From NCBI RefSeq assembly GCF_011516835.1, contig NZ_WOTB01000001.1, forward strand, positions 186,001-250,000: a DNA stretch of 64,000 nt. Direction: 5' to 3'. Under the pieces are notes generated by a model, which had not been told where the DNA came from, did not search any database, and saw nothing but the letters and a program-made list of their open reading frames with translations. The position numbers and the translations under genes were made by a program. How positions within the stretch are numbered: position 1 is the stretch's first letter; every line of letters starts with the position of its first letter. Origin of the DNA: Acetobacter musti (GTDB lineage Bacteria; Pseudomonadota; Alphaproteobacteria; Acetobacterales; Acetobacteraceae). Below are positions 12,853 through 62,955 of this stretch, piece after piece.

Positions 12853-12860
12853 GAAGCAAT

Positions 12861-13478
12861 ATGTTTTCAGGAATTATTGAAAATCAGGGTGAAGTGGCTT
12901 CGGTTGAGACCGGAAATGCCTCGTGTATTCTCGAAATTGATACAGGTATGACGGATGTTATTCCCGGCGAAAGTATTGCTGTGAATGGCGTCTGTCTGAC
13001 TGCCACTGATATTGGAGACACCGGGCGTGTCCGTTTTTTCGTCAGTGCGGAATCTCTGGACAGGACAGCATTCGGCCGTCTTCAGCCCGGTGGAACGGTT
13101 AATCTGGAGCGTGCAATAACCCCGACAACGCGATTGTCAGGTCATATGGTCCAGGGACATGTCGATGGCGTTGCGAAACTCGTTTCGGTTGATTTCGTCG
13201 GTGACGCCCGGAAGGTCGTGTTTTCGGTTCCGGCTGCATTGCGACGCTACATGGTTGAAAAAGGTTCGGTTACGCTTGATGGAATCAGCCTGACGCTTAA
13301 CGAAGTTGGCTCTCCGGTGGCCGGACTGGCGGGAGGTGAGTGTTTCACGATTGCGGTGATGATTATCCCGCATACCTGGGATCATACGACGCTTGGTACT
13401 CTTGAGCCGGGTGATCCCGTGAATGTCGAAGTCGATGTAATCGCAAAATATGTGGAGAGCATATGTCAGTATCGGTGA
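12861..13478 (+). CDS. ribE: Riboflavin synthase alpha chain
   Basis: 205 residues from [12 protein letters not shown], the classic N-terminus. Two lumazine-binding repeats are visible, each with the VNGVCLT / [11 protein letters not shown] signature and the [13 protein letters not shown] linker. It dismutates two 6,7-dimethyl-8-ribityllumazine molecules into riboflavin. An ATG at 12849 overlaps the ribD stop (ATGA) and would add MRSN; coupling may use it. The gene ends inside ribBA (16-base overlap). Confidence 0.93.
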
Positions 13479-15442: not shown

Positions 15443-16453
15443 ATGAAACGACTGACCATCCTTGCATCCGGGCTTGGCATTGGTCTGACCGTGTGGATGC
15501 TGGCCCGGTTTGGGGCAGGGTCGATCCTGGCTCTGGTTGCCGCCGGTGGATGGGGAGTCGTTCTGGCGATCCTTTTCCATAGTCTGCAGGTTTTGTTATC
15601 AGCTTTGTCCTGGCGGGTGATTGGCGGCAGTGAGGGGCAGGATGGTACCGTACTGCATCTGTACGACTATTATGTTCTTCGCTGTGTCCGTGAAGGCGTG
15701 AATAATCTTCTTCCTGTTGCGCAGGTTGGTGGTGAGGTGGTATCGGCGCGTCTTCTCGCACACCGGGGGCTTGGTATGCGGCGTGCTGCGGCCGCGACGA
15801 TCTGCGATCTGACAGTGGAATTGCTTACACAGGTCGCGTTTACAGTAGCCGGACTGGCTGTGCTTTTGTGTCTTGTCAAACGATCTGCGACGACGGATGA
15901 GCTTGTTGAAAGCGGTATCGTCGTCGTCCTGATCGGAATTGCGATTTTTGGCAGTCAGTGGTTCGGGGCAATTTCCATTGTCGAAAAGCTTCTGGTCAGA
16001 ATCGCCGGACATCTGGGATGGAGCGGTGTTGACGGAATCCGGGGGCTGCATGAGGAGATCATGGCGCTCTACAAAACATCCTCGCGCACGATGGCCGCTG
16101 GTGCTGCCCAGTTTGCGGGATGGTCGATCGGTGCGGCTGAGGTCTGCATTATTCTGCATTTTATGGGACACGACCGGTCTCTTGCGACGGGATATGTTAT
16201 CGAAAGCGTCGGTCAGATTGCTAAATCTGCGGCCTTTGCCGTGCCGGGAGGACTGGGCGTGTCGGAAGGGGGATATGTTCTGGTAGGGAGTCTGTTCGGA
16301 CTGCCTCCGACCGTCTCCATTGCTCTGTCACTGATCAAAAGGCTCCGCGAAATTGCGTGGGGTCTGCCTTCTCTGGTCATCTGGCAATGGCTCGAGACGC
16401 ACTGGCGTCCGGAACATGTGATCGGTTCTGCTTCAGGAGCCCATCAGCGGTAA
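15443..16453 (+). CDS. HpnL-like / LPG-synthase-TM family membrane protein
   Basis: 336 residues, mostly hydrophobic, with about seven or eight membrane helices. The segment VRCVREGVNNLLPVAQVGGE fits the motif of the HpnL/YbhN family (lysylphosphatidylglycerol synthase transmembrane region), and AKSAAFAVPGGLGVSEGGYV is the second family signature. HpnL-type proteins are encoded with hopanoid genes in many Proteobacteria and are candidates for hopanoid or lipid handling. No hopanoid gene lies next to it in this window. Exact activity is unknown. Confidence 0.65.
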   Translation: MKRLTILASGLGIGLTVWMLARFGAGSILALVAAGGWGVVLAILFHSLQVLLSALSWRVIGGSEGQDGTVLHLYDYYVLRCVREGVNNLLPVAQVGGEVVSARLLAHRGLGMRRAAAATICDLTVELLTQVAFTVAGLAVLLCLVKRSATTDELVESGIVVVLIGIAIFGSQWFGAISIVEKLLVRIAGHLGWSGVDGIRGLHEEIMALYKTSSRTMAAGAAQFAGWSIGAAEVCIILHFMGHDRSLATGYVIESVGQIAKSAAFAVPGGLGVSEGGYVLVGSLFGLPPTVSIALSLIKRLREIAWGLPSLVIWQWLETHWRPEHVIGSASGAHQR

Positions 16454-49126: not shown

Positions 49127-49494
49127 GAGGGGGCCTCACTGTCTGCGCGGTGGAGACTGTGGCGGATGGTGTCGCCGCGTATACTGAATGGTCTGACATG
49201 CCTGGCTGAACGGAGAGGTTCGTTCCGTGCATGGCATTACGGTATGCTGAAAATAACGCGCCTGTCCACATCGTTTTGATGGAGTATCTATAATTTTCTT
49301 ATTTTCCTGAAAAATATGAGAAAAAAAGGAAATTTTCTGTAACGCGATAGTCTGTTTCCCTCTTTTCAGTATACTTAAAAGCGGTCTAGTCTCTGCGCCG
49401 GACACTCCTGACCTGCGCCGGTATGCGGAAAGCGTGTATGCGGAGAACGGGGATTCGCCGGAGAGTCCTGAAACGGATGCGGAGCCTGTACGCC
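49127..49494. other. Divergent promoter region of units 2 and 3
   Basis: 368 bp, AT-rich in the middle. It holds GTATACTGAA (49179-49188), GTATGCTGAAAAT (49242-49254) and the palindrome at 49362-49381. No gene is seen. Confidence 0.6.
49362..49381. promoter_or_regulatory. 20-bp palindrome upstream of unit 3
   Basis: CTTTTCAGTATACTTAAAAG is palindromic in 18 of 20 positions around GTATAC. The size and centre suit a GntR-family operator, and a GntR gene is third in the downstream unit. Related half-copies occur at 49179 and 49242. Regulation is inferred. Confidence 0.55.
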
Positions 49495-50775
49495 ATGACG
49501 TCGCAGCAGAGTATGAGTCAGCATTATGATGTCGTCATTGCCGGTGCCGGCATTATCGGATTGTCCACGGCCCTGTTCCTGCGCGGGCGGGGGCTTTCGG
49601 TCATGGTGTTCGACAAGGGCGAGGCGGCCTATGAGCAGTCCAGCCGGAACTGGGGCTGGATGCGCACCATCGGGCAGGACATGGCGGAGCTGGAGCTGGC
49701 TCTGGCGAGCCGGCCGCTCTGGCGGCAATGGGCGGAGGAGGGCGATTTCGGTTTCCGGCGCTGTGGTCTGGTCTCTCTGGCCGGCGACGGCGAGGAGTGG
49801 GCCGGGCTGAGGAGCTGGCTGGAGCATGCGGCCGGGCGCGGGCTGGACACGCGGGAGCTGGGGAGCGCGGAGACGGCGGAGCTTCTGCCGCAGTTTCACC
49901 GGCGCTGGGCCGGGGCTCTGTTCGCGCCGGGCGATGCCGGGATCGAGCCTGATCTGGCCATGCGTTTTCTGGAGAAGAAGGTTCTGGATGCCGGTGTCGG
50001 CATTGTGACTGGCAATGCGATCCGGCGCATCGATATTTCCGGTGGCAGGGCCTGCGCGGTGGAGACCGAGACGGGACGTGTGACGGCGGACAGGATTGTG
50101 GTGGCGGCGGGGGCGTGGTCGCGCTGGGTGTGCAAGACGGTCGGGATCGTCATTCCGCAGCTTCGGGTGACGGCTTCGGTTCTGCGCACGACGCCGGTGG
50201 AGGGCGGGCCGGAAGTCAATGTGGCGTCGACGCGCTACTGCCTGCGGCGGCGGCGGGACGGGGGCTACACGGTGGCGCGGCGCAATTCGTCGCTGACCTG
50301 GGTGACGCCGGACTCGGTGCGGTTCATGCGGCAGTATCTGCCGAACTATCTGAAGCAGAAGCAGCTTCTCCGGGTCCGGGCCGGGACGAGCTTTTTTAAG
50401 GAACTGCGGCTTGAGCGGCGGTTCGGGCCGGGGCAGTCCAATCCGTTCGAGGATTTCCGGGCCTGCGATCCGGCGCCGGATATCGACACGCTGAAGGAGA
50501 CGTTTGAACATCTGAAGGAGGACGCGCCGGTTTTCCGGTCCGCGCGGATTGCGTCCTCCTGGGCGGGAACGATCGATGTGATGCCGGACGCGCTGCCGGT
50601 TCTCTCGCCTGTCGCGCGGTATCCGGGTCTGTTTCTGGCGACCGGGTTTTCGGCGCATGGTTTCGGGATCGGGCCGGCTTCGGGCCGGCTGATGGCGGAT
50701 ATTGTCATGGGCGAGGCGCCGGCTGCGTCCGCGGCGCCGTTCCGTCTGGAGCGGTTTCATCTCAACGACGACTGA
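49495..50775 (+). CDS. FAD-dependent amine/amino-acid oxidoreductase (DAO family), unit 3
   Basis: 426 residues from the ATG at 49495 (an ATG at 49513 is an alternative). Rossmann motif YDVVIAGAGIIGLSTALFL, then EQSSRNWGWMRTIGQD, IVVAAGAWSRWV and FLATGFSAHGFGIGPASG. Paralogous to the unit-1 FAD enzyme. It should oxidise a C-N bond with FAD. The stop is ten bases before the alcohol dehydrogenase start, so they are cotranscribed. Substrate unknown. Confidence 0.88.
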   Translation: MTSQQSMSQHYDVVIAGAGIIGLSTALFLRGRGLSVMVFDKGEAAYEQSSRNWGWMRTIGQDMAELELALASRPLWRQWAEEGDFGFRRCGLVSLAGDGEEWAGLRSWLEHAAGRGLDTRELGSAETAELLPQFHRRWAGALFAPGDAGIEPDLAMRFLEKKVLDAGVGIVTGNAIRRIDISGGRACAVETETGRVTADRIVVAAGAWSRWVCKTVGIVIPQLRVTASVLRTTPVEGGPEVNVASTRYCLRRRRDGGYTVARRNSSLTWVTPDSVRFMRQYLPNYLKQKQLLRVRAGTSFFKELRLERRFGPGQSNPFEDFRACDPAPDIDTLKETFEHLKEDAPVFRSARIASSWAGTIDVMPDALPVLSPVARYPGLFLATGFSAHGFGIGPASGRLMADIVMGEAPAASAAPFRLERFHLNDD

Positions 50776-50785
50776 GGATTTCGCC

Positions 50786-51949
50786 ATGCTGGATTTTTCG
50801 TTCTGCAATCCGACGCGTGTTCTGTTCGGCCGGGACATGTTTCCGCAGATGGAGGCGCATATTCCCGTCGGGGCGCGGGTTCTGGTGCTTTATGGCGGCG
50901 GGAGCGTGGTGCGGAACGGCACGATGGCGCGGGTTCTGGCGGCGCTTTCGCATCATGAGGTTCTGGAATTCGGCGGAATCGAGCCCAACCCGTCTTATGA
51001 GACGCTGATGCGGGCGGTGGCGCTGGTGCGCGAGGAGAGGATCGGTTTTCTGGTCGCGGTGGGTGGCGGTTCGGTGATCGACGGTGCCAAGTTCGTGGCG
51101 GCGGCGGCGCTGTATGAGGGCGATCCGTGGGAGATTCTGGAGACGCGCGGCAGCAAAATCCGCGCGGCGGTTCCGCTGGCGGCCATTCCGACGCTGCCGG
51201 CGACCGGGTCCGAGATGAACGGGACAGCGGTGATTACGCGGGGGGAACTGTCCACGAAGCGGGCGTTCCGGAGCGAGCATGTGTTCCCGGTTTTCGCGGT
51301 TCTCGATCCGACGCTGACTTTCACGCTGCCGCCGCGGCAGATCGCCAACGGGATTGTGGATGCGTTCGTGCATGTGCTGGAGCAGTATCTGACCTATCCG
51401 GTCGATGCGCCGGTTCAGGACCGGTTTGCCGAGGGGCTGCTGCATGTTCTGCTCGATGTGGCGGATGTGACGCTGGCCGAGCCGGAGAATTACGATGCGC
51501 GGGCCTGTCTGATGTGGGCGGCGACGCTGGCGCTGAACGGGCTGATCGGGGCGGGTGTGCCGCAGGACTGGTCGAGTCATCTGATCGGGCATGAGCTGAC
51601 GGCGCTTTATGGTCTGGACCATGCGCGGACGCTGGCGGTGGTGCTGCCGGCGACGCTGCAGGTGCGGCGCGGGGAGAAGCGGGCGAAGCTGATTCAGTAT
51701 GCTGAGCGGGTCTGGGGCGTGCGGGACGGGACCGGCGATGAAAAAATCGACGCGGCGATCGGGCTGACCCGTGCGTTTTTCGAGCGGCTTGGGTTTGAGA
51801 CCCGTCTGTCGGGCTATGATCTCGGGCGGGATGATGTTTCGGCTTTGCTGAAAGCGCTGGAGCGGACGCACGGGGCGTCCTATGCGCTTGGGGAAAACCG
51901 GACGGTGACGCCGGATGTTGCCACCGCTGTTTTCGGGGCTAGTCTGTAG
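50786..51949 (+). CDS. Iron-containing alcohol dehydrogenase, YqhD-like
   Basis: 387 residues from the ATG at 50786. NAD(P)-binding motif GGGSVIDGAKFVAAA, and metal ligands expected in IVDAFVHVLEQYL, SSHLIGHELTALYGLDHARTLA. The latter stretch, with WAATLALNGLIGAGVPQDWS, is nearly diagnostic of the YqhD/BdhA group, which reduces short aldehydes with NADPH. In context it could dispose of an aldehyde formed by the upstream FAD enzyme. The longer frame starting at 50702 overlaps that gene and is not needed. Confidence 0.9.
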   Translation: MLDFSFCNPTRVLFGRDMFPQMEAHIPVGARVLVLYGGGSVVRNGTMARVLAALSHHEVLEFGGIEPNPSYETLMRAVALVREERIGFLVAVGGGSVIDGAKFVAAAALYEGDPWEILETRGSKIRAAVPLAAIPTLPATGSEMNGTAVITRGELSTKRAFRSEHVFPVFAVLDPTLTFTLPPRQIANGIVDAFVHVLEQYLTYPVDAPVQDRFAEGLLHVLLDVADVTLAEPENYDARACLMWAATLALNGLIGAGVPQDWSSHLIGHELTALYGLDHARTLAVVLPATLQVRRGEKRAKLIQYAERVWGVRDGTGDEKIDAAIGLTRAFFERLGFETRLSGYDLGRDDVSALLKALERTHGASYALGENRTVTPDVATAVFGASL

Positions 51950-51954
51950 CGCCT

Positions 51955-52731
51955 GTGGATGTGCTGGCGAATGTTCCGGCGAATGCGGTGGTGAGAGATG
52001 TGGTGTCTGGCGTCATGACGAAAGCGGACCTGCCTGGTGTGGCGGAAGATGGCGGGGTGCGCCGGCATTATACCGGCGAGGAGCTTTATCTCATTCTCCG
52101 GCAGGATCTGATCAATGACAGGACGCCGGGGGGCGCGGTTCTTCAGGAGAACGAGATTGCCGCGCGGTACGGGGTCAGCCGGACGCCGGTGCGTGAGGCG
52201 CTGCAGAGGCTGCATCAGGACAATCTGATCGGGCGCAAGGGGCGGTTTTACACGGTTGTGCAGCCGCCGCTGGAGCGCATTCGCGAGCTGTATGAGTTTC
52301 GGGAGGCGATTGAGGCGAGCACGATCGTTCTGTGCTGCCGGCGGGCGAGTGAGGAGACGCTGGAGCAGATCCGGGCGATTGTCGAGGAGCAGCAGGACGC
52401 GGCGGATCAGAAGCGGTTTTACGATTATGAGCGTCTGGACGCGCTGTTTCATGTGGCGATTGCGAACGGGGGCGACAACCGGCTTCTGACGCATCAGCTT
52501 GAGGTCAGTTATGACCAGATCTGGTTTTCCAAGGTGGGAAATCTGGTGTCGCTGCAGGAGTATTCGGTCGACGGGACGATTGCCGAGCACCGGCGCATTG
52601 CCGATGCGCTGATCCGGCGCAAGGAGGATGTGGCGAAGGCGGAGATGATCAGTCATCTGCGCGCGGCGATCGATGTGAGCGAGCGTTCGGCGGGGCCGCG
52701 CGGGAAGCGGGGGAAGAAGCCGCGCGGGTAG
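51955..52731 (+). CDS. GntR-family regulator (FCD/FadR subfamily)
   Basis: 258 residues. The winged helix (about 40-105) shows LRQDLINDRTPGGAVLQENEIAARYGVSRTPVREALQRLHQDNLI, and the all-helical FCD domain (about 115-235) has EFREAIEASTIVLCCRR, DALFHVAIANGGDNR and EHRRIADALIRR, with His residues for a metal or ligand site. GTG start at 51955, five bases after the dehydrogenase; ATG at 52015 is possible. Likely controls its own unit and the divergent unit 2 through the palindromes in 49127-49494; known analogue: GntR-type NtaR beside ntaAB. Confidence 0.85.
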   Translation: MDVLANVPANAVVRDVVSGVMTKADLPGVAEDGGVRRHYTGEELYLILRQDLINDRTPGGAVLQENEIAARYGVSRTPVREALQRLHQDNLIGRKGRFYTVVQPPLERIRELYEFREAIEASTIVLCCRRASEETLEQIRAIVEEQQDAADQKRFYDYERLDALFHVAIANGGDNRLLTHQLEVSYDQIWFSKVGNLVSLQEYSVDGTIAEHRRIADALIRRKEDVAKAEMISHLRAAIDVSERSAGPRGKRGKKPRG

Positions 52732-52975: not shown

Positions 52976-55411
52976 TTACTCGATGGGGACGCGGACGGTC
53001 ATGAGGGCGGAGAAGCCTGGTTCCACGTAATAGGTTGGCGCGCCGCCGGCGATGGTGCCGCCGAAGACGCCCGTGGTAGCTTTGGCGTTGTCGCTGTAGC
53101 CGTAGACGCCGGTTCTCTGGGTGGAATTGTTGATGTTGTTCAGGTTGACCTGGATGGACGGGCGGTTGAACACGACGAATTTCGGCAGTCTGTATCCGAG
53201 GATGACGCTGTTGGTGATGTAGCCGGGCATTTTTTCGTCGTTCATCAGTGTTGAATACTGTGAGCTGATATATTTGAGATTGACGCTGCCGAAGAAGGTG
53301 CCGTCATCGTAGGACAGACCGAGGCCGGCCTGGTAATGCGGGCTGGCGATCTGGGTTTTGCCGGCGGTGCGCAGATAGTCTGTCTGTCCGGCGCTGTTGA
53401 CGGTCTGCAGGTTGTTGTCCTGGCGGGCGTCGAGATAGGCGAAGGTGACGTAGGGGGTGAAGCGTCCCCAGAGCGGGGTTGTGCCGAGCTGGACATCGAC
53501 GCCGCGGCTGGTCTGTCCGCCGGCGTTGAATTCGCGCTGGACCTGGACGCCTTCCTGGTAGGTGTTGAGGGTGAGGAGGCGGTTGGTCATGTTCATGTTG
53601 AAGAACGAGACAGAGGCGACGATTTTGTCGCCGTTGTAGCGGTAACCGATTTCTTCCTTGATGGCGTACTGGGATTTCGGGGAGGTGGCGCCGGTTGTGA
53701 GGGCGCCGGTGGAGACGCTGTACTGCTGGGCGGTCGAACCCATGAAGGGCTGGCGGTAATCGCCTTCGGCGTTGATGTAGATCTGGTTGGCGCGGTCGAA
53801 ATTGTAGCGGGCGCCGAAGGAGGGCAGCGGGATGTTTTCGCTGATTCCCATGTGGGGCGTGGAGCCGGGGACATAGTTGTCAACGCCGCGCGTGACCATG
53901 ACGTCCTTGAATCCGGCGTTGATAATCAGCCGGTCTTTCAGCAGGCGCAGCGTGTCCATCACATAGGGCGCGTTGATCTGGTAGTGCAGGAAATAGTTGT
54001 CGTAGTAATACGGGTTTCCGTTTGGCAAGCGATAGTAATTGTAGGAGTGGCTGAGATCGGCGGGGTCGCCGGTTTCCTGGTTGACGAAGCCGACGGGGTC
54101 TTTCTCGCGCAGATTATAGTTTTCGTACCAGTAACCGAAGGTCAGGGTATTGTGGCCCTGGGTCCATGCGAGTTTCGAGTTGATGCCGCCGATATAGGTC
54201 GGGCCGCCGAAGCCGGTGGAGGCGAGGTATTGCTGCCCGTTCTGGGCGGTGCCGCCGGTCCCCTGGGCGAGGTTGATATCGACGCGCTGGTTGCCGAGGT
54301 AAGTCTGCCCCTGGGTCAGGGTTGTTCCGCCGGGACCCCAGCCGAAGCCGTACCAGAAATAGGGTGTGGTGTCCCAGGTCAGGTGCGGCGTGAGCACGAC
54401 GTGGGCGGGGGCGAGAACGGTGCCGCTGTAGAAAAGCGATGTCTGGTTCAGCTTGTAATAGGAGCCGTCATGGATGCCGCTGTAGGTGGCGTCCGGGTTG
54501 ACCCAGCGGGTCTGGCGCCATTCTTCCTGGGTTGGATAGTAATAATAGCCGTTCTTGTTGTTGTTGAAGACGGATTCGAGCGCGATGGTGCTGCCGTTAT
54601 TGAACGACTTGAGCAGTTTGAAGTCGACATGCTGCTTTTTCGCGATACCGGGGCCGCGCCAGAAATCCGTCGAGGCGTTTGAGTAGGAGACGAAGGCTCT
54701 GACGCCGGAATGGCCGATCTCGCCGCTGTCGAGCCTGATGAAGCCGCGATAAGTGTTGAAGGTGCCATAGGTGAAATCGACCTGGGCGCGGGCTTTTGCA
54801 GTCGGGTCCTTCATCTTTGTGTAAATAACGCCGCCTGTGGCGGATGTGACGGGGTCGTCGGTGGAGCTGGAGCCGGGGGTGATGGAGACCCGGTCCATGT
54901 TTTCGCTGTCGAGCATTTCCGCCTGGAATCGTCCGGCGCCCGGGGAGAGGGTCGGAGCGCCGTCGAGCACCCAGCCCATATCGTCGACGGTGAGGCCGCG
55001 GACCATGATGCCGTTGCTGAGGATTCCGGTCGGGTCCTGAGACATTGAGTTGACGCTTGGCATCATTGCCAGCAGGCCGACGACGTTGGAGGTGGGATTT
55101 TGTTTGGCAATGTAATCGGCGCTGACGGACTGGACGGAGCGGGTGTCATCGCGCCGCTGGAGCATACCGCCGCCGGACGAGATGCGCAGACGGGCGGAGG
55201 CGACGCGGATTTCTTCCGCTTTCGCACTTTCCATGGTGCTGACAGGGCGTTTTGGTGCGGGTGGCTTCTTTGCGGGGGATGCTGAAGCGGGTGTGGTGAG
55301 TTTCGCCGGGGGATGCCGGCGCGGGGCTGCTTCCGCCTTCTGGGTGGCGAGCAGGCCGAGCAGGGGGATGGCGAGTGCCGAGGTGGTGAGCAGCGCGCTT
55401 TTTTGACCCAT
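52976..55411 (-). CDS. TonB-dependent outer membrane receptor (LacI-regulated)
   Basis: 811 residues. Signal peptide (about 1-28), a Lys/Pro/Ala-rich stretch, the TonB-box-like AEEIRVASAR, a plug domain (SADYIAKQNPTSNVVGLLAMMP, NGIMVRGLTVDDMGWVLDGAP) and a long barrel rich in Tyr. Related to the unit-2 receptor. It has its own promoter with a LacI-type operator abutting the -10, identical to that of the downstream-encoded sugar-type ABC unit, so it is probably the outer-membrane entry for the same solute. Confidence 0.88.
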   Translation of the reverse strand: MGQKSALLTTSALAIPLLGLLATQKAEAAPRRHPPAKLTTPASASPAKKPPAPKRPVSTMESAKAEEIRVASARLRISSGGGMLQRRDDTRSVQSVSADYIAKQNPTSNVVGLLAMMPSVNSMSQDPTGILSNGIMVRGLTVDDMGWVLDGAPTLSPGAGRFQAEMLDSENMDRVSITPGSSSTDDPVTSATGGVIYTKMKDPTAKARAQVDFTYGTFNTYRGFIRLDSGEIGHSGVRAFVSYSNASTDFWRGPGIAKKQHVDFKLLKSFNNGSTIALESVFNNNKNGYYYYPTQEEWRQTRWVNPDATYSGIHDGSYYKLNQTSLFYSGTVLAPAHVVLTPHLTWDTTPYFWYGFGWGPGGTTLTQGQTYLGNQRVDINLAQGTGGTAQNGQQYLASTGFGGPTYIGGINSKLAWTQGHNTLTFGYWYENYNLREKDPVGFVNQETGDPADLSHSYNYYRLPNGNPYYYDNYFLHYQINAPYVMDTLRLLKDRLIINAGFKDVMVTRGVDNYVPGSTPHMGISENIPLPSFGARYNFDRANQIYINAEGDYRQPFMGSTAQQYSVSTGALTTGATSPKSQYAIKEEIGYRYNGDKIVASVSFFNMNMTNRLLTLNTYQEGVQVQREFNAGGQTSRGVDVQLGTTPLWGRFTPYVTFAYLDARQDNNLQTVNSAGQTDYLRTAGKTQIASPHYQAGLGLSYDDGTFFGSVNLKYISSQYSTLMNDEKMPGYITNSVILGYRLPKFVVFNRPSIQVNLNNINNSTQRTGVYGYSDNAKATTGVFGGTIAGGAPTYYVEPGFSALMTVRVPIE

Positions 55412-55511
55412 GGGTTGCCTCCGTAGAACGTGCGCGTCGTGGACAGGACATGATTTTTCGAGATCTTCCTGATCCGGCTGACGAATTGCGCAGGCCTTGT
55501 GATCGGGAGAG

Positions 55512-55525
55512 ATAAACCGGTTTAT
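55512..55525. promoter_or_regulatory. LacI-type operator of the TonB receptor
   Basis: ATAAACCGGTTTAT, a perfect 14-bp palindrome with central CG, the classic LacI-family form. It abuts the -10 element of the minus-strand promoter. The same 12-bp core recurs at 61763 beside lacI. Confidence 0.8.
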
Positions 55526-55554
55526 TTAATAGGTGGCGGAAAGATCGCCGTCAA
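55526..55554 (-). promoter_or_regulatory. Promoter of the LacI-regulated TonB receptor
   Basis: On the minus strand TTGACG (55554-55549), 17 bp spacer, TATTAA (55531-55526), about 115 bp before the start codon at 55411. Good sigma-70 match; operator follows at once. Confidence 0.7.
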
Positions 55555-55677
55555 TATATTTCGTTATCGTTATTAAAAGAATGATACGGTCTGAAATGGC
55601 GTGGAACCGGTGGTGAGGAGATGAGTCAGGTGCGGAAAAGTGCTGATAAACCGGCGGGCTGATGGAACGGGCCGGGG

Positions 55678-56826
55678 TTATCCCGGAATGCCGGGACAGG
55701 CTGAGAAAAATTCGATGCAGTCTCTGTAGAGATGCGTGGCGGTCAGGAGAGAGTCGACCGGGCAGTATTCGTCCGTCTGGTGGGCGATATCGGGCTCGCC
55801 GGGACCGATGATGACGGCGGGCGCATTGCCGAAAGCCGGTGACAGGATGGCGGCATCTGTGAAATAGGGCACTGTGACGACGCCCCGGTCGGGGATGCCG
55901 TGACGGGTGGCTACTGTCCGGACGGCCTGCACGAAGGGATTATCGGGCGGGGCGACGACGGGCGGGATGTTGAGGCGGGTCTGCAGGGACAGGGCGTCGC
56001 ACAGGCAGGTTCTGATCGTGCCGCCGATGCGGCTGTGTGTGGCGGGGCTGCTGGTCCGGGCGTCGACGGTGAAACTGGCTCTGTCGGGGACGGAGTTGAT
56101 GTTCATGCCGCCATGAAAGGTTCCGATACAGACGGTTGTTTTCCCGAGGATCGGGTCGTCTTCTCCGAGATCGGCGGCGCGGATGCGGGTGATGGCGTCG
56201 GTGGCATGATAGATGGCGTTCACGCCGAATTCCGGCATGGCGGCGTGGGCGGTGCGGCCTTCAGCGGTGCATTCGAACCAGGCGACGCCTTTATGGCCGA
56301 GCACGGGGTAATTGCGGGTGGATTCACCGATCAGCAGGCCAATGAAGGTGCAGCCGGCGAGAAGGGAATCGGAGATGAGGGCGGATGCGCCCTCGCAGCC
56401 GGTTTCCTCGCCGCCGGTCAGGATGATGGTGACGTCGGGACAGGTCCCGGTTTCGGCGTGATGGCGGGCGCAGGCGGCGATGAAGGCGGCGATGCCGCCT
56501 TTCATGTCCGAGCTGCCGCGACCATAGATGCGGCCATCGGCGATTTCGCCGGAGAAGGGCGGGTGTGTCCATGTGCCGCCGCCGAGCGGGACGGTATCGA
56601 GGTGGCCGGAAAAGCCGAGATTATTACCCGGCTGTTTGCCGGGTGGTCTGGCGACGAGGTTTACCCGGCGTTCACCGAAGCCGTGCGTGGTGACGTCGAA
56701 CCCGATGCCGGTGAGGATTTCCGCGCAGAGTTCCGCGCAGGCGGCTTCGTCGCCGGGCGGATTGATGCTGGGAATCCGGATCAGGTCCTGAAGAAGTCTG
56801 ACGGGATCGGTGTGGTTTCCGGTCAT
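55678..56826 (-). CDS. M20-family metallo-deacylase/peptidase (ArgE/DapE type)
   Basis: 382 residues from the ATG at 56826 (MTGNHTDPVRLLQDLIRIPS). Zinc ligands are visible: His/Asp in LGFSGHLDTVPLG, the Asp in GRGSSDMKGGIAAF, and the catalytic Glu-Glu in LTGGEETGCEGA. The dimerisation insert (about 180-295) contains GHKGVAWFECTAEGRTAHAAMP. These enzymes cleave N-acyl groups or short peptides. Last gene of the ABC/PTE unit, five bases after the GATase1-like gene, so it may deacylate the imported compound. Confidence 0.86.
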   Translation of the reverse strand: MTGNHTDPVRLLQDLIRIPSINPPGDEAACAELCAEILTGIGFDVTTHGFGERRVNLVARPPGKQPGNNLGFSGHLDTVPLGGGTWTHPPFSGEIADGRIYGRGSSDMKGGIAAFIAACARHHAETGTCPDVTIILTGGEETGCEGASALISDSLLAGCTFIGLLIGESTRNYPVLGHKGVAWFECTAEGRTAHAAMPEFGVNAIYHATDAITRIRAADLGEDDPILGKTTVCIGTFHGGMNINSVPDRASFTVDARTSSPATHSRIGGTIRTCLCDALSLQTRLNIPPVVAPPDNPFVQAVRTVATRHGIPDRGVVTVPYFTDAAILSPAFGNAPAVIIGPGEPDIAHQTDEYCPVDSLLTATHLYRDCIEFFSACPGIPG

Positions 56827-56831
56827 GCGGT

Positions 56832-57596
56832 TCAGCCCCGTGTTGTCAGCCAGTCGAGACAGTTGACCCAGAGGGTTCTGTAGCCGGGCCATGCGAGGTA
56901 GTCGTCGGGCATCCAGTGGGCGGACATGTCGCTGGTCCAGACGAGCGAGCGGCTGTTGCCCATGTCGCGCGCGGCGATGAGAGGGTGGTCATCTTCGCCG
57001 ACGGTGGCGACGAGTGTTGCGTCCGGATGCAGGACGACCTCGTTGTAGCCGAGCAGGACCGGCCAGGTGTCGGGCAGGCCTGAGGCGACGGGGTGTGTGG
57101 CGCTGACGACTTTGACGGCGCTGCCTTCGGGGGTTTCCTGACGGTCGTCATAGGGGAGGCAGGTGACGGGCAGGAGTTTTTCGACCGGTGTGTTACGGTA
57201 ACGGGCCTGTCCGTTGACGCCCTGGAAGCTGAGATAGCCGCCGACCATCATGATGGAGCCGCCGTTTTTCACATATTCGGCGATGACTTTCAGGCGGTTG
57301 GGGAAGGTTTTGCTGTGCAGCCAGGTGTCGGGGTGGATCAGCAGGGTATTGGCGCCGACATCGGAGAGGATGATGGCGGCGTATTGCGCGAGGTCTTCCG
57401 CCTTTGCCGGGAACTGGCTCTGGGCGATTTCAGACGGCATATGGGTGATGTCGTAGGCGGTGTCGCTCATGGCCTTGAGGAAGTTGACGGCACCGTTATG
57501 GGCGGTGGTGGTGAAGAACTGGTCAAATCCCTTGGCGTGGCTGGCGGAGCTGATCCAGGACTCGCCGACGAGGAGGATTTTCTTTTTCTCGGACAC
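56832..57596 (-). CDS. GATase1-like (PF07090-type) protein of unknown function
   Basis: 254 residues from a GTG at 57596 with AAGGA at nine bases; an upstream in-frame ATG at 57632 is less likely. ILLVGESWISSASHAKGFDQF, LSDVGANTLLIHPDTW and GGSIMMVGGYLSFQG match the glutamine-amidotransferase-like domain that lacks a clear catalytic Cys at the nucleophile elbow (SDVGAN), so an amidotransferase reaction is doubtful. The family is often encoded with sugar-type ABC transporters and hydrolases. Function unknown; context points to catabolism. Confidence 0.75.
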   Translation of the reverse strand: MSEKKKILLVGESWISSASHAKGFDQFFTTTAHNGAVNFLKAMSDTAYDITHMPSEIAQSQFPAKAEDLAQYAAIILSDVGANTLLIHPDTWLHSKTFPNRLKVIAEYVKNGGSIMMVGGYLSFQGVNGQARYRNTPVEKLLPVTCLPYDDRQETPEGSAVKVVSATHPVASGLPDTWPVLLGYNEVVLHPDATLVATVGEDDHPLIAARDMGNSRSLVWTSDMSAHWMPDDYLAWPGYRTLWVNCLDWLTTRG

Positions 57597-57616
57597 TGGG
57601 TTTTCCTTTTTCGGGG

Positions 57617-58828
57617 TTATCTTCCGCCACACATGGCTCGCCGGGGGTTGGTGACGAGCAGCTGTTCGATGTCGCGATCCTGCAGCCCGTATCGTTTCAG
57701 GCGGGGCACGAAGTGACGGAGGATGTATCCATATCCGTGGCCGCCGTAGCGGGTGAGCATGCTTTTCAGGAACACGTCGTGGGAGACGAGGACTTTCTTT
57801 CCGTATCCCCGTTCGAACAGGCGTGTGATGGCTGTGGCGTTTTCATCATCGGACGGGCACTGGGCGTCTTCTTCCGGGTAATAATACGACATGGAGATCA
57901 TGTCGTATTCGAGCCAGGCGCCGCGGTCGGCGAGACTGTGCTGGTAGTCCGGGTCTGAAAAACTCGGGTTCATGTGACAGAGGATCACATGACTGAGGTC
58001 CGCTCCCTCTTCTTCCGCGATATCGAGCACGGTATGGGCGACGCGCATCCAGGCGGGAAGATGAACGGAAAGGGGGACGGTGGTGACGGCCGAGGCGATG
58101 GCGGCGGCGCGCAGGACTTTCTCCTCGTCTTTCGTCATGACGGAGGAGATGCCGATTTCGCCGATGATGCCAGCGAGGATGCGGGGGGCCCTGTCTTCTT
58201 CTGATCCGCCTTCTTCCGGTCCGTTTTCTTCTGATCCGTCCGGTCCGGCGCCGCCGACATCGCGGATGATGCGGCGGGCGAGCTGGTCGGTGCTTTCCGG
58301 ATGGACGTAACCGGGGTGGGAGGGCTGGAGGTAATATCCGGCGCCCATGACGATGTTCAGGCCGGTCTCCTGTGAGATTTTCCGCAATGTGGCGGGGTCG
58401 CGGCCGATGCCGACATTGGTGGGATCGACGACGGTGCGGCCATCCAGATCGTGGAATTTCTTCAGCTCTTCAGTGGCGAGTTCCGCATTGTCGAGCATGC
58501 AGTTGTCGCGGTTGCCGAGCGGGTTCATCGCGATTTCGCCGAGCATGTCCATGGCCAGCGGGCGCATGGCCCAGGAGGAGTGGCAGGGGCAGGCGGGGCC
58601 GGAGAGACCTGACGTTTCGGGAGATGCGGTCCATTTCTTCGAGGCGTCGAGCAGGATGTGCTCATGCATGAGGGTGACGCCCATCTCATCGGGGGTGATG
58701 GGGCCGCTGACGGTCATGACGCGGCCGCTGGCGACGCCGACGGAACCCGGAGGCGGGGTGTCTGTTGCCGGGGTAGTCGTTGCCGGCGCGGTCGTGCCTG
58801 GGGTGTTCGGGGAGGGTTCAGTTGTCAT
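57617..58828 (-). CDS. Phosphotriesterase-family metallohydrolase
   Basis: 403 residues. Binuclear-metal ligands: HxH in VTLMHEHIL, a bridging Glu in IIGEIGIS in place of the carboxylated Lys of true phosphotriesterases, His in LSVHLPAW, His in VILCHMNPSF and Asp in VLVSHDVFLK. The Glu variant marks the Php/cog1735-type lactonase or amidohydrolase group. Oddities are a Thr/Pro-rich N-terminus (about 1-30) and an acidic, repetitive insert (EENGPEEGGSEED, about 200-212) encoded by imperfect tandem DNA repeats. It overlaps the permease gene by eleven bases. Confidence 0.85.
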   Translation of the reverse strand: MTTEPSPNTPGTTAPATTTPATDTPPPGSVGVASGRVMTVSGPITPDEMGVTLMHEHILLDASKKWTASPETSGLSGPACPCHSSWAMRPLAMDMLGEIAMNPLGNRDNCMLDNAELATEELKKFHDLDGRTVVDPTNVGIGRDPATLRKISQETGLNIVMGAGYYLQPSHPGYVHPESTDQLARRIIRDVGGAGPDGSEENGPEEGGSEEDRAPRILAGIIGEIGISSVMTKDEEKVLRAAAIASAVTTVPLSVHLPAWMRVAHTVLDIAEEEGADLSHVILCHMNPSFSDPDYQHSLADRGAWLEYDMISMSYYYPEEDAQCPSDDENATAITRLFERGYGKKVLVSHDVFLKSMLTRYGGHGYGYILRHFVPRLKRYGLQDRDIEQLLVTNPRRAMCGGR

Positions 58829-59906
58829 CGCCGTTTTTCCTGATTCCGAAGAGATCGCGTCCTTTGAGGCTCATATTGATCCAGATGGCGCCGATGGTGA
58901 TGAGGCCGGTGAAGATCTGGGTCAGGAACGGGGAGACGTGGGCGAGGATGAGGCCGTTTTTCAGGCAGGCGAGGGTGAGGATGCCGAGGGCGGAGCCAAT
59001 GACGGTGCCGTAGCCGCCGGTGAGGCTGGTGCCGCCGAGGACGACGGCGGCGATGACATCGAGTTCGAAGCCGACGCCGATATTGGAGGAGGCGCTGCCG
59101 AGCCGTCCGGTCATGAGGATGCCGGAGAGGGCGGCGGCGAGGCCGCTGAGGGCGTAGACGGTCAGCGAGATGCGGCGGACGTTGACGCCTGTGCGGCGCA
59201 CGCCTTCCTGGTTCGAGCCGATGCCGGTGATGTAACGCCCGAAACGGGTGCGGTGGAGGGTGATGCTGCCGGCGGCGACGCAGGCGAGCATGATGAGGGC
59301 GGGGACCGGGACGGGTCCGATCCAGCCGCGTCCGGGCCATTCGAGCAGAGGGGCGTTTTCGGGCAGGGGGAGGGAGTAGCCCTGGGCGATGAGGAGGGAG
59401 AGTCCACGAAAAACGGACATGGTGGCGAGGGTGACGATGAAGGGGGCCATGCCGACGCGGGTGATGAGGAGGCCGTTGGCGGTTCCGGCGACCGTGCCGG
59501 CGAGCAGGGCGCCGGCGAGGGCGAAGGCGGGCGGGAGGTGCCAGAAGGTGGCGAGGACGGCCATGGTGATGCCGCTGAACGCGGCGACGGCGCCGATGGA
59601 GAGGTCGATCCCGCCGGTGGTGATGACGAGGGTCATGGCGGTGGCGGAGATGAAGGCGGCGGCGTTCTGGCGGAGGATGGTCAGGAGGTTGGTGACGGAC
59701 AGGAAAGAGGGCGCGCAGAGGGAGAAGGTCAGTACGCAGACGAGCAGCAGGCAGAGCACGCTGGCGAGGCCTGGCTGTCTTTCGAACAGGAGGGCGATGG
59801 CGTGAAGCGGGCTGGTCTGTGTGCGTGCGGGGGTTTTCTGCGGCGTTGGGGAGGATGTTGCGGGCATGGAATTCCCGGAAGCGGAATCAGTGTGCGGAAC
59901 GGGCAT
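58818..59906 (-). CDS. Ribose-type ABC transporter permease
   Basis: 362 residues, about ten membrane helices, of the RbsC/BPD_transp_2 family: LVITTGGIDLSIGAVAAFSGI, NGLLITRVGMAPFIVTLATMSVFRG and FELDVIAAVVLGGTSLTGGYGTVIG are the classic segments. It imports a sugar or sugar-like solute. It overlaps the ATPase gene by 20 bases. The first 30 residues are Pro/Ser/Thr-rich; a later start is possible. Confidence 0.88.
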   Translation of the reverse strand: MPVPHTDSASGNSMPATSSPTPQKTPARTQTSPLHAIALLFERQPGLASVLCLLLVCVLTFSLCAPSFLSVTNLLTILRQNAAAFISATAMTLVITTGGIDLSIGAVAAFSGITMAVLATFWHLPPAFALAGALLAGTVAGTANGLLITRVGMAPFIVTLATMSVFRGLSLLIAQGYSLPLPENAPLLEWPGRGWIGPVPVPALIMLACVAAGSITLHRTRFGRYITGIGSNQEGVRRTGVNVRRISLTVYALSGLAAALSGILMTGRLGSASSNIGVGFELDVIAAVVLGGTSLTGGYGTVIGSALGILTLACLKNGLILAHVSPFLTQIFTGLITIGAIWINMSLKGRDLFGIRKNGDDN

Positions 59907-60654
59907 GGAAACGCTCTCCCACGATGAGATCGACGAGTTCTCCGATGCTGGTTTCGCCGATATGGCGTTCCGCGGCGACGACGCCGTTGCGGATGACGGC
60001 GATGCGGTCGCAGACGTGGAAGAGGTCCTGGAGCCGGTGGGTGATGAGGATGATGGTGACGCCCTGGTCGCGGAGTTTTGTAATCAGGCTGAGCACGGCT
60101 TCGACTTCCATGACGGCGAGGGCGGCGGTGGGTTCGTCGAGGATGAGCACGCGGGGGCTGAAGGCGGCGGCGCGGGCGATGGCGATGGCCTGACGCTGGC
60201 CGCCGGACAGGCTTTCGACGCGGGCGTGGGTGTCGCGGATGACGACGCCGAGGCCCTGGAGCATTTCGGCGGCCCGGCTGTGCATCGTTTCTGTATCCAG
60301 CAGGGGAATTCCGAGGACGCGGCGTGTGGGCTCGCGGCCCATGAACAGGTTGCCGGCGACGTCGATGGTGCCGCACAGGGACAGGTCCTGATAGACCATG
60401 TGCACGCCGGCATCCTGGGCGTCACGCGGGGACGTGAAGTGGCGGGGCTGTCCGTCGATGAGAATTTCGCCGCCGCTGGGAGCGAGGGCGCCGGACAGGA
60501 TTTTTGTGAGGGTGGATTTGCCGGCGCCGTTATCGCCGAGGAGGCCGAGGACTTCGCCGCGACCGAGTGTCAGAGTCACGCCACGTAAAGGCTGGATGGC
60601 GCCGAAACGGCGGGTAATGCCGCGCATTTCGACGGCGGGGGGCTGGCTGGTCAT
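59887..60654 (-). CDS. Ribose-type ABC transporter ATPase, single domain
   Basis: 255 residues from the ATG at 60654, which overlaps the SBP stop (ATGA). Walker A GDNGAGKSTLTKILSG, signature LSGGQRQAIAIARA, Walker B VLILDEPTAALAVMEVE and switch His in LITHRLQDL. Most ribose-type importers have a fused double ATPase of about 500 residues (RbsA); this one has a single domain like FrcA-type proteins, so it should act as a homodimer. The longer frame starting at 60888 overlaps the SBP gene and is rejected. Confidence 0.88.
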   Translation of the reverse strand: MTSQPPAVEMRGITRRFGAIQPLRGVTLTLGRGEVLGLLGDNGAGKSTLTKILSGALAPSGGEILIDGQPRHFTSPRDAQDAGVHMVYQDLSLCGTIDVAGNLFMGREPTRRVLGIPLLDTETMHSRAAEMLQGLGVVIRDTHARVESLSGGQRQAIAIARAAAFSPRVLILDEPTAALAVMEVEAVLSLITKLRDQGVTIILITHRLQDLFHVCDRIAVIRNGVVAAERHIGETSIGELVDLIVGERFHARSAH

Positions 60655-61700
60655 GGCTGTCTGATCATGGTTGTGCGGATGCGGTCCGTTGGGGTGACAG
60701 AGGCCACGAGGGTGCGGGGGGTGACGATGGTGGCGGGCACGGTGATGTCGTGCGGGGCGGGGGTATTTGTGAGCCAGTCGCGGGCGGCGTTTACGGCGGC
60801 TTCGCCCATGCCGACGGTGTCCTGGACGGCGGTGGCGAGGACGGTTCCGTTGCGGAGGCCGCGCGCGATTTCGGGGGACATGTCCCATCCGGCGAGGTGG
60901 ACAGGTTTGCGGGGCGGGCTGGTCTGCAGGGCGGAGAGGGCGCCGATCATGGCCGGTTCGCCGGTGGCGTAGATGAGGTCGAGTTCCGGGGCGGCGGCGA
61001 GCAGGTCCTCGGCTGCGGTCTGGGCTGAATCGAGGATATTCTGACCGTCAACGAAGCCGGCGACATGGAGGGAGGGGGCCTGTTTTTTCATGGCGTCGAG
61101 GAAGCCGTTGCAGCGGAGGGTCTGGATATAGGAGCTGGTGGCGCCGACGATACCGATGCTGGCCGGCGGGGTGTGGCCGGGCTGCAGCAGGGCGTCGAGC
61201 AGGCGGGCGGCGGTGCTGATGTTATCGACGCCGATCTGGGCGATGGTTTTTCCGGTGACGATGGCGTCGATGGCGATGACGGGCACGCCGGAGCGGGCTG
61301 CGGTGCTGATGGCGTCGCGGACGCCGTAGACGTCGATGGCGCAGAGGAGGATGGCGCTGACGTTCTGTTCCGCGTAATTCTCGATGGCGTCGGACTGGGC
61401 GACGGGGCTGTTGTCGGCGTCGAACACGGAGAGGGTGTAGCCGAGCTGATCGCACCGGCTTCGGACGCCGCGCGTGATTTCATTGAAGTATTGCGAGGAC
61501 TCCGTGGTCTGGACGAGGGCGATGCGGACGGGGTTTGTCTGCGCGGCTCCCGGCCGGGGGATGCTGAACTGTGCTGTGCCGGTAGTCGTGCGGGCGTCCA
61601 GGCCGGCGGCTGTTCCGGCATGGGCGGCGCGGGCGCGCGCGGCTGGCAGGCACAGGGTGAGTGCGCCGCAGATCAGTTTTCTTCGATGCACGGTCAGCAT
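60651..61700 (-). CDS. Ribose-type periplasmic binding protein
   Basis: 349 residues of the Peripla_BP_4 (RbsB) family. The N-terminal 25 residues are a signal peptide (RRKLICGALTLCLPAARARA). Then IALVQTTESSQYFNEITRGV, AILLCAIDVYGVRDAI, GVPVIAIDAIV and LIYATGEPAMIGALSAL. It delivers a sugar or related solute to the permease. First gene of the operon, divergent from lacI and 63 bp from the operator. Confidence 0.86.
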   Translation of the reverse strand: MLTVHRRKLICGALTLCLPAARARAAHAGTAAGLDARTTTGTAQFSIPRPGAAQTNPVRIALVQTTESSQYFNEITRGVRSRCDQLGYTLSVFDADNSPVAQSDAIENYAEQNVSAILLCAIDVYGVRDAISTAARSGVPVIAIDAIVTGKTIAQIGVDNISTAARLLDALLQPGHTPPASIGIVGATSSYIQTLRCNGFLDAMKKQAPSLHVAGFVDGQNILDSAQTAAEDLLAAAPELDLIYATGEPAMIGALSALQTSPPRKPVHLAGWDMSPEIARGLRNGTVLATAVQDTVGMGEAAVNAARDWLTNTPAPHDITVPATIVTPRTLVASVTPTDRIRTTMIRQP

Positions 61701-61762
61701 GGCATCCGGGGCGGGGTTCCTGAGCAGGGCGACGGGTCCGGGTATCCCCGTTCGGGTGTTTG

Positions 61763-61774
61763 TAAACCGGTTTA
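61763..61774. promoter_or_regulatory. LacI-type operator between lacI and the ABC unit
   Basis: TAAACCGGTTTA, a perfect 12-bp palindrome identical to the core at 55512. A second, degenerate site (AAACGGATAAACGG) lies at 61783-61796, and a minus-strand -35-like TTGACA is at 61815-61810. Confidence 0.75.
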
Positions 61775-61935
61775 TCTGATGAAAACGGATAAACGGATGT
61801 GGGTTCTGTTGTCAAGCCGAAATGGAAAGGCGCGGCATGTGTCTTGCGGTATTTGTCTGCGCGGAGATTGATCATTACAATGGAAGACGCAGTGGCGGAG
61901 TTTTCACGCCCTGGGCCTGAAGGTGCCGGACGCTG

Positions 61936-62955
61936 TTGATAAAGAAAAAAGGACCTACCATTCAGGATGTTGCGGATCGGGCGGGTCTTTCGAAGGCGGC
62001 TGTTTCGCGGTACCTGAATAAGTCGATCAGGCTTCCCCAGGAGACGGGCCGCAAGATTGACGAGGCTGTCGCGGCTCTGGGGTACCGGCGCAATTCGATT
62101 GCGCGGCGGCTGAGCAAGGGCGGGAGCGAGACGATTGGTCTCGTGGTGCCGGAGATTTCCAACACCTTCTTCTCCGAGATGGCGGAGGCGGTCGAGCAGA
62201 CGGCTTCGGAGCGGGGGTACAATCTGATTCTGGGAATCAGCCGGAATCATCCGGACAAGGAGCTGGGATTTCTGCGCTGGATCGATGATTCGATCGTGGA
62301 CGGTCTGCTGTTCGTGACGAATCGTCCGGATAATCGTCGCCTGCAGCTCGATATTCGTCGTTATGGCGCGGTGGTGCTGCTGGATGAGGACATTCCGGGC
62401 ACGGCGCAGGACAAGGTGTTCTGTCACAATGTCGCGGGGGCGCGGGATGCGACCCGGTATCTGATCCGGACCGGGCACAGGCGGATCTTTCATGTGACGG
62501 GTCCGGTTTCGCTGATGAGTGTGCAGGAGCGGCTGGAGGGGTTCCGGCTGGCGCATGAGGAGGCGGGTCTGCCCTGTCCGGACGCGCATATATTCCATCA
62601 TGACTACTCGCAGCGGTTTGGCCGCGAGGTGGTGGGGCAGATTCTGTCGCATCCGGTCCTGCCGGACGCGGTGTTCGCGGCGAGCGATTACATTGCGATC
62701 GGGATGCTGGAGGAGCTGAAGCGCAACGGGGTGCGGGTTCCGGAGGACATGTCGGTTGTGGGGTTCGATGACACGGCGCTGGCCTGTCTGGTGACGCCGA
62801 AGCTGACGACGATCCGGCAGGATGCGGCGGAGCTGGGGCGGATCGGGACGGAGCGGCTGCTGGATGCGCTGGCGCGTCCGGAGACGCCGCGCGGGGTGAC
62901 GCGGATTGCGGCGTCTCTGATCGTGCGGGATTCGGTGCGCGACACAAGGACGTGA
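61936..62955 (+). CDS. LacI-family transcriptional repressor
   Basis: 339 residues from a TTG at 61936, the only start possible after the in-frame stop at 61918. Helix-turn-helix TIQDVADRAGLSKAAVSRYLN with the hinge GYRRNSIARRLSKG, then a periplasmic-binding-protein-like sensor domain (TIGLVVPEISNTFFSEMAEAV, DAVFAASDYIAIGMLEEL, SVVGFDDTALACLVTPKLTTI). It is divergent from the ribose-type ABC operon. The paired palindromes in front of that operon and of the TonB receptor suggest it controls both. Confidence 0.92.
   Translation: MIKKKGPTIQDVADRAGLSKAAVSRYLNKSIRLPQETGRKIDEAVAALGYRRNSIARRLSKGGSETIGLVVPEISNTFFSEMAEAVEQTASERGYNLILGISRNHPDKELGFLRWIDDSIVDGLLFVTNRPDNRRLQLDIRRYGAVVLLDEDIPGTAQDKVFCHNVAGARDATRYLIRTGHRRIFHVTGPVSLMSVQERLEGFRLAHEEAGLPCPDAHIFHHDYSQRFGREVVGQILSHPVLPDAVFAASDYIAIGMLEELKRNGVRVPEDMSVVGFDDTALACLVTPKLTTIRQDAAELGRIGTERLLDALARPETPRGVTRIAASLIVRDSVRDTRT

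Follow-up and report, generated by a model that had tools for sequence, protein, structure and literature searches.

We analyzed a 64,000-nucleotide stretch of the Acetobacter musti genome (contig NZ_WOTB01000001.1, positions 186,001 to 250,000; hereafter, the window) in which a LacI-family regulator gene, lacI, lies beside genes for an ATP-binding cassette (ABC) importer, enzymes, and a TonB-dependent outer-membrane receptor. On the minus strand, a periplasmic binding protein is followed by a single-domain ABC ATPase, a CUT2-type permease, a phosphotriesterase (PTE)-family hydrolase, a GATase1-like protein, an M20 deacylase, and the TonB receptor; lacI is on the plus strand and divergent from the ABC operon (Table 1). 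A preliminary description of the locus, made from the DNA letters alone, had treated the receptor as a separate unit, with the two sites 6 kb apart, but it is the next gene 3' of the operon on the same strand, 266 bp past the last operon gene (M20). Comparison with related loci strongly supports a regulon in which the LacI-family protein very probably governs both the ABC-hydrolase operon and the receptor gene, as a local repressor, through two matching operators.

Matching candidate operators at two promoters

The preliminary description reported a palindrome at 55512-55525 that abuts the -10 element of a TTGACG-N17-TATTAA promoter for the receptor and a 12-bp copy of its core at 61763-61774 between lacI and the ABC operon, and both sets of coordinates proved exact. 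We designate the corresponding candidate operators O2 (ATAAACCGGTTTAT) and O1 (GTAAACCGGTTTAT); the 12-mer TAAACCGGTTTA is contained in GTAAACCGGTTTAT. The earlier term “identical operators” is accurate for the 12-bp core, whereas the full 14-mers share 13 of 14 bases. The 10-bp core AAACCGGTTT has two exact copies in the whole window. With O1, the regulator has a CG-centred palindromic candidate operator near its own gene, as expected of a LacI-family regulator. A degenerate third copy had been reported at 55645 (GATAAACCGG). The sequence is present, but it is a lone half-site, missing from the M20-TonB gaps of the relatives described below, and we rejected it as an operator.

In the 4.7-Mb genome, 16 places match ATAAACCGGTTTAT at up to two mismatches: one is exact, the lacI site differs at a single base, and 14 differ at two; the reversed 14-mer, used as a control, has three matches at up to two mismatches. 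Random recurrence of the palindrome, which the preliminary description named as fatal to its proposal, is not what we see: the exact site is specific, with only two 14-mer sites at one mismatch or fewer. For a genome this large, the base frequencies of the window predict 0.08 exact 12-mers, and its dinucleotide frequencies 0.03. Among 49 control genomes of the genus, three encode a LacI ortholog (E <= 1e-60), two of these apparently being the genomes of the A. senegalensis and A. oeni loci described below, and each of the three carries exact TAAACCGGTTTA twice, at the same two places. The 46 genus genomes without this LacI contain it once each in two cases and not at all in 44; the reversed 12-mer occurs once each in 4 of the 49. 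In G388, a genome from another genus of the same family, the exact 12-mer is found exactly twice, both times at the cluster.

Both sites are conserved among acetic acid bacteria. Loci from A. senegalensis (L005), A. oeni (L006), Nguyenibacter vanlangensis (L007), and G388 (L126) have the gene order of the window, including a homologous receptor, which is 87-91% identical at the same place in L005-L007. In all four loci, ATAAACCGGTTTAT lies 3' of the receptor -35 at the same position as in the window, and a site containing TAAACCGGTTTA lies between lacI and the binding-protein gene. Because L007 shares 98.7% identity with L126 over 12.7 kb, we count the five genomes with both sites as four lineages. 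By our reading, the ABC promoter of the relatives is TTGACA-N17-TTTCAT or TTTTAT, with the 14-bp site three bases later.

Two further features of these promoter regions were observed. An 8-bp insertion at 61785-61809 in the window, absent from the four relatives, resembles a tandem ATCCGTTT repeat. A block close to ACGATATCGAAATATATTGAC at 55550-55570, reaching through the receptor -35, is invariant at 18 of 21 positions in five sequences and unique in the genome at up to three mismatches, and is possibly the site of a second regulator.

The regulator and its predicted operator beyond acetic acid bacteria

This LacI is found together with the same operator in Alpha-, Beta-, and Gammaproteobacteria, and the pair flanks orthologous operons in Burkholderiales, Pantoea, and Klebsiella. 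Together with the presence of both copies in the window's lineage and three other acetic acid bacterial lineages, this bears out the expectation of the preliminary description that the sites be conserved before orthologous operons. We could parse 76 of 78 lacI entries and sought the motif TAAANCGNTTTA within about 750 bp; at one mismatch or fewer it adjoins 75 of the 76 parsed entries, exactly so in 73. The 76 loci hold 142 TAAANCGNTTTA sites in 1.24 Mb, and by our arithmetic about three would be expected in the lacI-adjacent stretches. In Burkholderiales, TGTAAACCGGTTTACA or close variants adjoin lacI, and three loci have an extra operator copy between the PTE and GATase1-like genes (L017 5771, L020 9130, L023 9110), so a second operator arose more than once. 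Two perfect GTAAACCGGTTTAC sites are located 3' of lacI in Pantoea (L099 7893-8077, 171 bp apart) and in Klebsiella (L102 9889-10075, 173 bp apart).

Other arrangements were noted in passing. The spacing of the paired Pantoea and Klebsiella sites would allow DNA looping. Upstream of lacI in Inquilinus-type loci (L009 4028-4050, L021 4031-4053), two operator cores are 13 bp apart; a 13-bp peak is reported for overlapping LacI-family sites (PMC4052901). In L014 and L029, sites resembling the operator near 11117 and 12223 fall inside the coding sequence of btpA-like open reading frames (ORFs) and were not counted; L022 has the same operator-like site at 11117.

The operator varies together with the recognition helix of the regulator. 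A symmetric CC/GG core is found with 21 of 22 Lys-Ala recognition-helix pairs, with 4 of 14 Val-Ala pairs, and with none of 31 Val-Thr pairs. In a tree of 33 chosen LacI rows, computed with a long-branch warning for L009, the acetic acid bacterial proteins form a group (support 96/94) with those of Pantoea and Klebsiella, and the rhizobial and Paracoccus proteins fall outside it. Lys recurs in Paracoccus within this other clade, where L080 has C on both sides of the core, and L062 and L065 have it on one side. Closely related rows dominate the counts, and the base that varies is next to the central CG, not at half-site positions 4-5, to which a published LacI code assigns these recognition residues (PMC2978694). 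We therefore use the covariation as support only.

Gene products of the locus

Table 1. Genes, candidate operators, and promoter elements at the locus, in window coordinates.
Feature	Coordinates	Strand	Basis
LacI-family regulator, 339 amino acids (aa), TTG start	61936..62955	+	Pfam LacI helix-turn-helix and Peripla_BP_3
Ribose/sugar-type periplasmic binding protein, 349 aa	60651..61700	-	Peripla_BP_4; top PDB match 5hsg, followed by ribose- and other sugar-binding proteins
Single-domain ABC ATPase, 254 aa	59887..60651	-	ABC_tran
CUT2-type permease, 362 aa	58818..59906	-	BPD_transp_2; best NCBIfam model is ribose permease, below cut-off
Phosphotriesterase-family hydrolase, PTER/3k2g branch, 403 aa	57617..58828	-	PF02126; best PDB sequences 3k2g and PTER 9efa
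GATase1-like protein, 266 aa	56832..57632	-	PF07090; PDB relatives 2gk3, 3soz
M20 ArgE/DapE-type deacylase, 404 aa	55678..56892	-	Peptidase_M20 and M20_dimer
TonB-dependent receptor, 811 aa	52976..55411	-	PF07715 Plug and PF00593 TonB_dep_Rec_b-barrel
Predicted operator O2, ATAAACCGGTTTAT	55512..55525	.	Directly 3' of TonB-receptor promoter -10; identical 14-mer at same place in L005, L006, L007, L126
Predicted operator O1, GTAAACCGGTTTAT	61762..61775	.	Between lacI and ABC operon; 12-bp core kept in L005, L006, L007, L126
Predicted TonB-receptor promoter -35, TTGACG	55549..55554	-	Read by eye; spacer 17; TTGAC invariant in 5 of 5 sequences
Predicted TonB-receptor promoter -10, TATTAA	55526..55531	-	Read by eye; alignment; abuts O2
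Predicted ABC-operon promoter -35, TTGACA	61810..61815	-	Read by eye; invariant in 5 of 5 sequences; -10 uncertain in window

The regulator has the domain architecture of the LacI family (PF00356, 2.1e-12 at residues 8-53; PF13377, 7e-36). It scores under the cut-off of every NCBIfam model listed, and with 224.2 of 382 and 196.7 of 531 bits against the RbsR models it does not qualify as RbsR. The BPD_transp_2 permease, the Peripla_BP_4 binding protein, for which the best PDB sequence (5hsg) is presumably a Klebsiella protein, and the sugar-type ATPase are the components of a CUT2-type importer. The best NCBIfam models for the ATPase are sugar-importer ATPases (RbsA/XylG/MglA-type), of which only the first half is matched, and its length is 254 aa. 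A typical CUT2 ATPase is a duplicated two-domain protein of about 500 aa, and single-domain versions are known; because the ATPase here is single-domain, we label the importer CUT2-type only. A longer alternative start at 60888 is possible for the ATPase ORF. For the M20 deacylase, scores stay below cut-off with each of the 25 NCBIfam models listed out of 55. The preliminary description counted three hydrolase-type genes; the product of one of these, the GATase1-like protein, is a hydrolase by family name only.

Elsewhere in the window (46628-52731), another TonB receptor, which shares 36% identity with the one described above, lies beside a flavin adenine dinucleotide (FAD) oxidoreductase, an iron-type alcohol dehydrogenase, and a GntR/FCD regulator. 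This group is perhaps another local uptake and oxidation cluster; the exact operator is absent there.

Distribution of the core cluster and of the receptor

A search of genome contigs found 164 stretches that encode a relative, and the best 80 of these were retained; together with five loci from a plasmid collection and four from further genomes, 89 loci were compared. Genes were clustered at 35% identity, a level that can overlook distant members, and contig ends truncate some of the loci. The permease cluster is represented in 87 of the 89 loci, the GATase1-like cluster in 83, and a lacI entry in 77. BtpA-family proteins are encoded in 76, TenA in 42, a carbamoylase-type M20 enzyme in 29, and an ArgE/DapE-type M20 enzyme in 12, the BtpA, TenA, and carbamoylase clusters having been identified from one to two members each. 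Ribokinase-like kinases were recognized by Pfam and NCBIfam in L099 and L101 and by eye in L014, L017, and L020. The core pathway, comprising LacI, a CUT2-type ABC importer, a PTER-branch hydrolase, a GATase1-like protein, and often a ribokinase-like kinase, BtpA, TenA, or M20 enzyme, is widespread.

The homologous TonB receptor is present in 3 of the best 80 related loci (L005-L007) and in L126, all from acetic acid bacteria. The phosphotriesterase is found at E <= 1e-80 in 10 of 397 sampled genomes of the family, namely that of the window, G388 (82% identical), and eight others at 49-53%; the wider stretches of three of those eight loci (L127-L129) contain no homolog of the window receptor. 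On a Klebsiella IncL/M plasmid (L098 8186-17618), permease, PTE, GATase1-like, and M20 genes, a TolA-like gene, and a siderophore-type TonB receptor lie between IS26 copies. We considered this receptor as a further instance of the same arrangement and rejected it: it is siderophore-receptor-like by NCBIfam and on the opposite strand. A scan of L098 at 12800-13700 and 15500-15700 for CG-centred palindromes in which 6 or 7 of 7 positions pair detected none.

A proposed model and its alternatives

In our proposed model, a LacI dimer would, without inducer, occupy AAACCGGTTT at the start of both promoters and block them. One promoter would drive the operon from the binding protein through the ATPase, permease, PTE, and GATase1-like genes to the M20 gene, and the other would drive the following TonB receptor. 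A small molecule derived from the substrate would bind LacI, and both units would be released together. The receptor would carry the compound over the outer membrane and the CUT2-type ABC importer would carry it over the inner membrane, the PTE-family and M20 hydrolases would break it down, and the receptor would raise scavenging at low substrate. We infer repression relieved by an inducer because the operators cover the likely start sites. In the sux system of Xanthomonas, mutation of suxR raises suxAB, suxC, and suxR levels when sucrose is absent (PMC1790865). Activation is predicted for some LacI-family proteins, such as rhizobial PckR, for which both negative and positive modes are predicted (PMC4052901), but it is improbable that the LacI described here is an activator or dual regulator: its operator abuts the receptor -10 and sits three bases past the ABC -10 of the relatives, over the likely start site, which is the usual position for repression.

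It is scarcely credible that the two sites match by chance. Such a view could point to the 14 further two-mismatch 14-mer sites in the genome and to the 12-mer at one mismatch, which is not specific: there are 4 such sites in this genome and 9, 5, and 3 in three relatives, against 1, 3, 7, and 5 for the reversed control in the same four genomes, so that in two of the four it is no commoner than the control. The case therefore rests on the exact 12-mers, which stand at the two promoters in the three LacI-bearing genus genomes and in the relative from another genus, where only 0.03-0.08 are expected per genome. Like the one-mismatch counts, several features of the promoter regions weigh against joint control by LacI. 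A generic promoter scan, whose -10 rule requires a final T, lists neither promoter; the spacer of the ABC promoter in the window has eight extra bases, making its -10 uncertain; and the generic scan finds no minus-strand terminator-like sequence in the gap before the receptor, such that read-through could also express it.

The preliminary description linked receptor, importer, and hydrolases as one uptake and degradation system. The link through a shared regulon is upheld by our comparisons, and co-regulation and adjacency suggest that the receptor and the importer carry the same compound. A smaller but appreciable probability attaches to a purely regulatory pairing, in which the receptor is co-regulated with the operon and imports something else, such as iron or a vitamin. 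The family is rich in receptors of this kind (homologs at E <= 1e-110 in 50 of 200 sampled genomes), and an unrelated siderophore-type receptor adjoins the cluster on the Klebsiella plasmid. On the other hand, the receptor is adjacent to the importer and has the common operator core in all five genomes with such a cluster, and its best homolog outside the window's locus in the 200 genomes is only 62% identical. The combination of a TonB receptor with a ribose-type ABC importer had been called unusual; this applies to the CUT2 importer, whereas TonB with an ABC importer as such is the classical pairing for B12 and siderophores.

We also looked for further members of the regulon proposed for LacI. 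The 12-mer TAAACCGGTTTA at up to two mismatches is not near any of 15 fetched receptor homologs of 39-62% identity (L132-L146, 5.2-5.4 kb each). A candidate site at contig C2:56176 (TTGTAAACCGGTTTGTCT; position 7177 of L107, TTGTAAACCGGTTTGT) is about 40 bp upstream of the start of a short-chain dehydrogenase and about 9 kb from a 62%-identical receptor paralog. No counterpart was recognized in three relatives, which have 7, 3, and 1 further one-mismatch 12-mer sites whose gene contexts were not read, and we judged a third regulon member there unlikely. A two-mismatch site at C1:92657 falls within an ORF and was rejected.

Possible substrates

We tentatively suggest, as the interpretation that accommodates most of the observations, that the substrate is riboside-like, that is, a sugar joined to an amide-bearing group. 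The suggestion derives from the ribose-type importer, from the ribokinase-like kinase, BtpA, TenA, or carbamoylase-type genes that are added in the clusters of other bacteria, and from a 62%-identical receptor encoded beside a nucleoside hydrolase in another genome. That receptor gene, in G048 (L148 8275-16209), has an inosine-uridine nucleoside hydrolase gene as its neighbor, and an NMT1/THI5-like binding protein and an APH-family kinase are encoded nearby. On a Gluconobacter plasmid, a broken receptor of about 43% identity overlaps a nucleoside-hydrolase annotation. Among the neighbors of other receptor homologs (the C2 paralog of the same genome, G022, G056, G123), no nucleoside hydrolase was recognized by eye. 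NMT1/THI5- and PnuC-type genes were seen near receptor homologs in the few loci read.

Some observations speak against a riboside-like substrate. We aligned the binding protein with the E. coli ribose-binding protein at what we take to be its seven ribose-contact positions; by our reading Asp89, Arg141, Asp215, and Gln235 are kept, and three, Asn13, Arg90, and Asn190, are not. BtpA is absent from this genome, and kinase and TenA genes are not in the acetic acid bacterial clusters that we read. With similar reserve, we suggest that a widespread catabolic pathway for a riboside-like amide, with its own LacI, may have been made into a high-affinity scavenging system in acetic acid bacteria by placing a second operator before a recruited TonB receptor.

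It is very unlikely that the PTE-family enzyme hydrolyzes N-acetyltaurine, as mammalian PTER does, and that the cluster serves N-acyl sulfonates. PTER (9efa) is the second-best PDB match of the enzyme, which retains the metal ligands, and M20 would supply a further deacylase. However, R204, R233, and H300, which are proposed to contact the substrate in mouse PTER (PMC11374699), are replaced by Ala, Pro, and Phe here, and by Gly, Pro, and Phe in 3k2g, in our mapping onto the 9efa chain, and we rejected this identity for the PTE gene.

Relation to known systems

We found no description of this cluster or regulon in the open-access papers searched; subscription journals, regulon databases, and the supplementary tables of one LacI-family study, which hold 54 LacI groups with unspecified sugar roles (PMC4052901), were outside the search. 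The conserved cluster provides a clean candidate regulator-operator pair in several groups of Proteobacteria, including on replicons of rhizobia, Pantoea, and Klebsiella, and an example of an outer-membrane TonB receptor that one lineage added to a regulon already in place. The inducer of LacI would name the substrate of PTER-branch phosphotriesterases, GATase1-like (PF07090) proteins, and BtpA proteins in such a setting.

Several known systems resemble parts of the locus. In the window and in the gene order of its four relatives, a TonB receptor, an inner-membrane transporter, a degrading enzyme, and a regulator are located together, as in a CUT locus. The Xanthomonas sux (CUT) locus SuxR-SuxA-SuxC-SuxB likewise places a LacI-family repressor over a TonB receptor, an inner-membrane sugar transporter, and an enzyme; unlike the system described here, its SuxC is a major-facilitator protein and not an ABC transporter, its enzyme is an amylosucrase, and its substrate is sucrose (PMC1790865). 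ThuR and AglR of Alphaproteobacteria are local LacI regulators divergent from operons with ABC transporter and hydrolase genes, and the core of the ThuR motif, AAAnCGnTTT, fits AAACCGGTTT; these operons differ in serving trehalose or alpha-glucosides and in including kinases, and the term TonB is absent from the main text of that study (PMC4052901). As for the E. coli RbsR/Rbs system, the permease, binding protein, and regulator each best match a ribose-system NCBIfam model, but the scores are far below cut-offs, the ATPase of the window is single-domain, there is no ribokinase, and PTE, GATase1-like, M20, and TonB genes are added. The PTE enzyme shares its branch by sequence, and its conserved metal ligands, with mammalian PTER and Rhodobacter 3k2g, whereas the residues of PTER proposed to contact N-acetyltaurine are replaced. 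A LacI locus with a TonB receptor, an inner-membrane transporter, and an enzyme is thus of an already known kind; the present locus differs in its CUT2-type importer, its PTER-branch pathway, and the receptor added in one lineage via a second operator. These comparisons point to a nutrient pathway, so far unrecognized, that occurs without the outer-membrane pore in many other bacteria.

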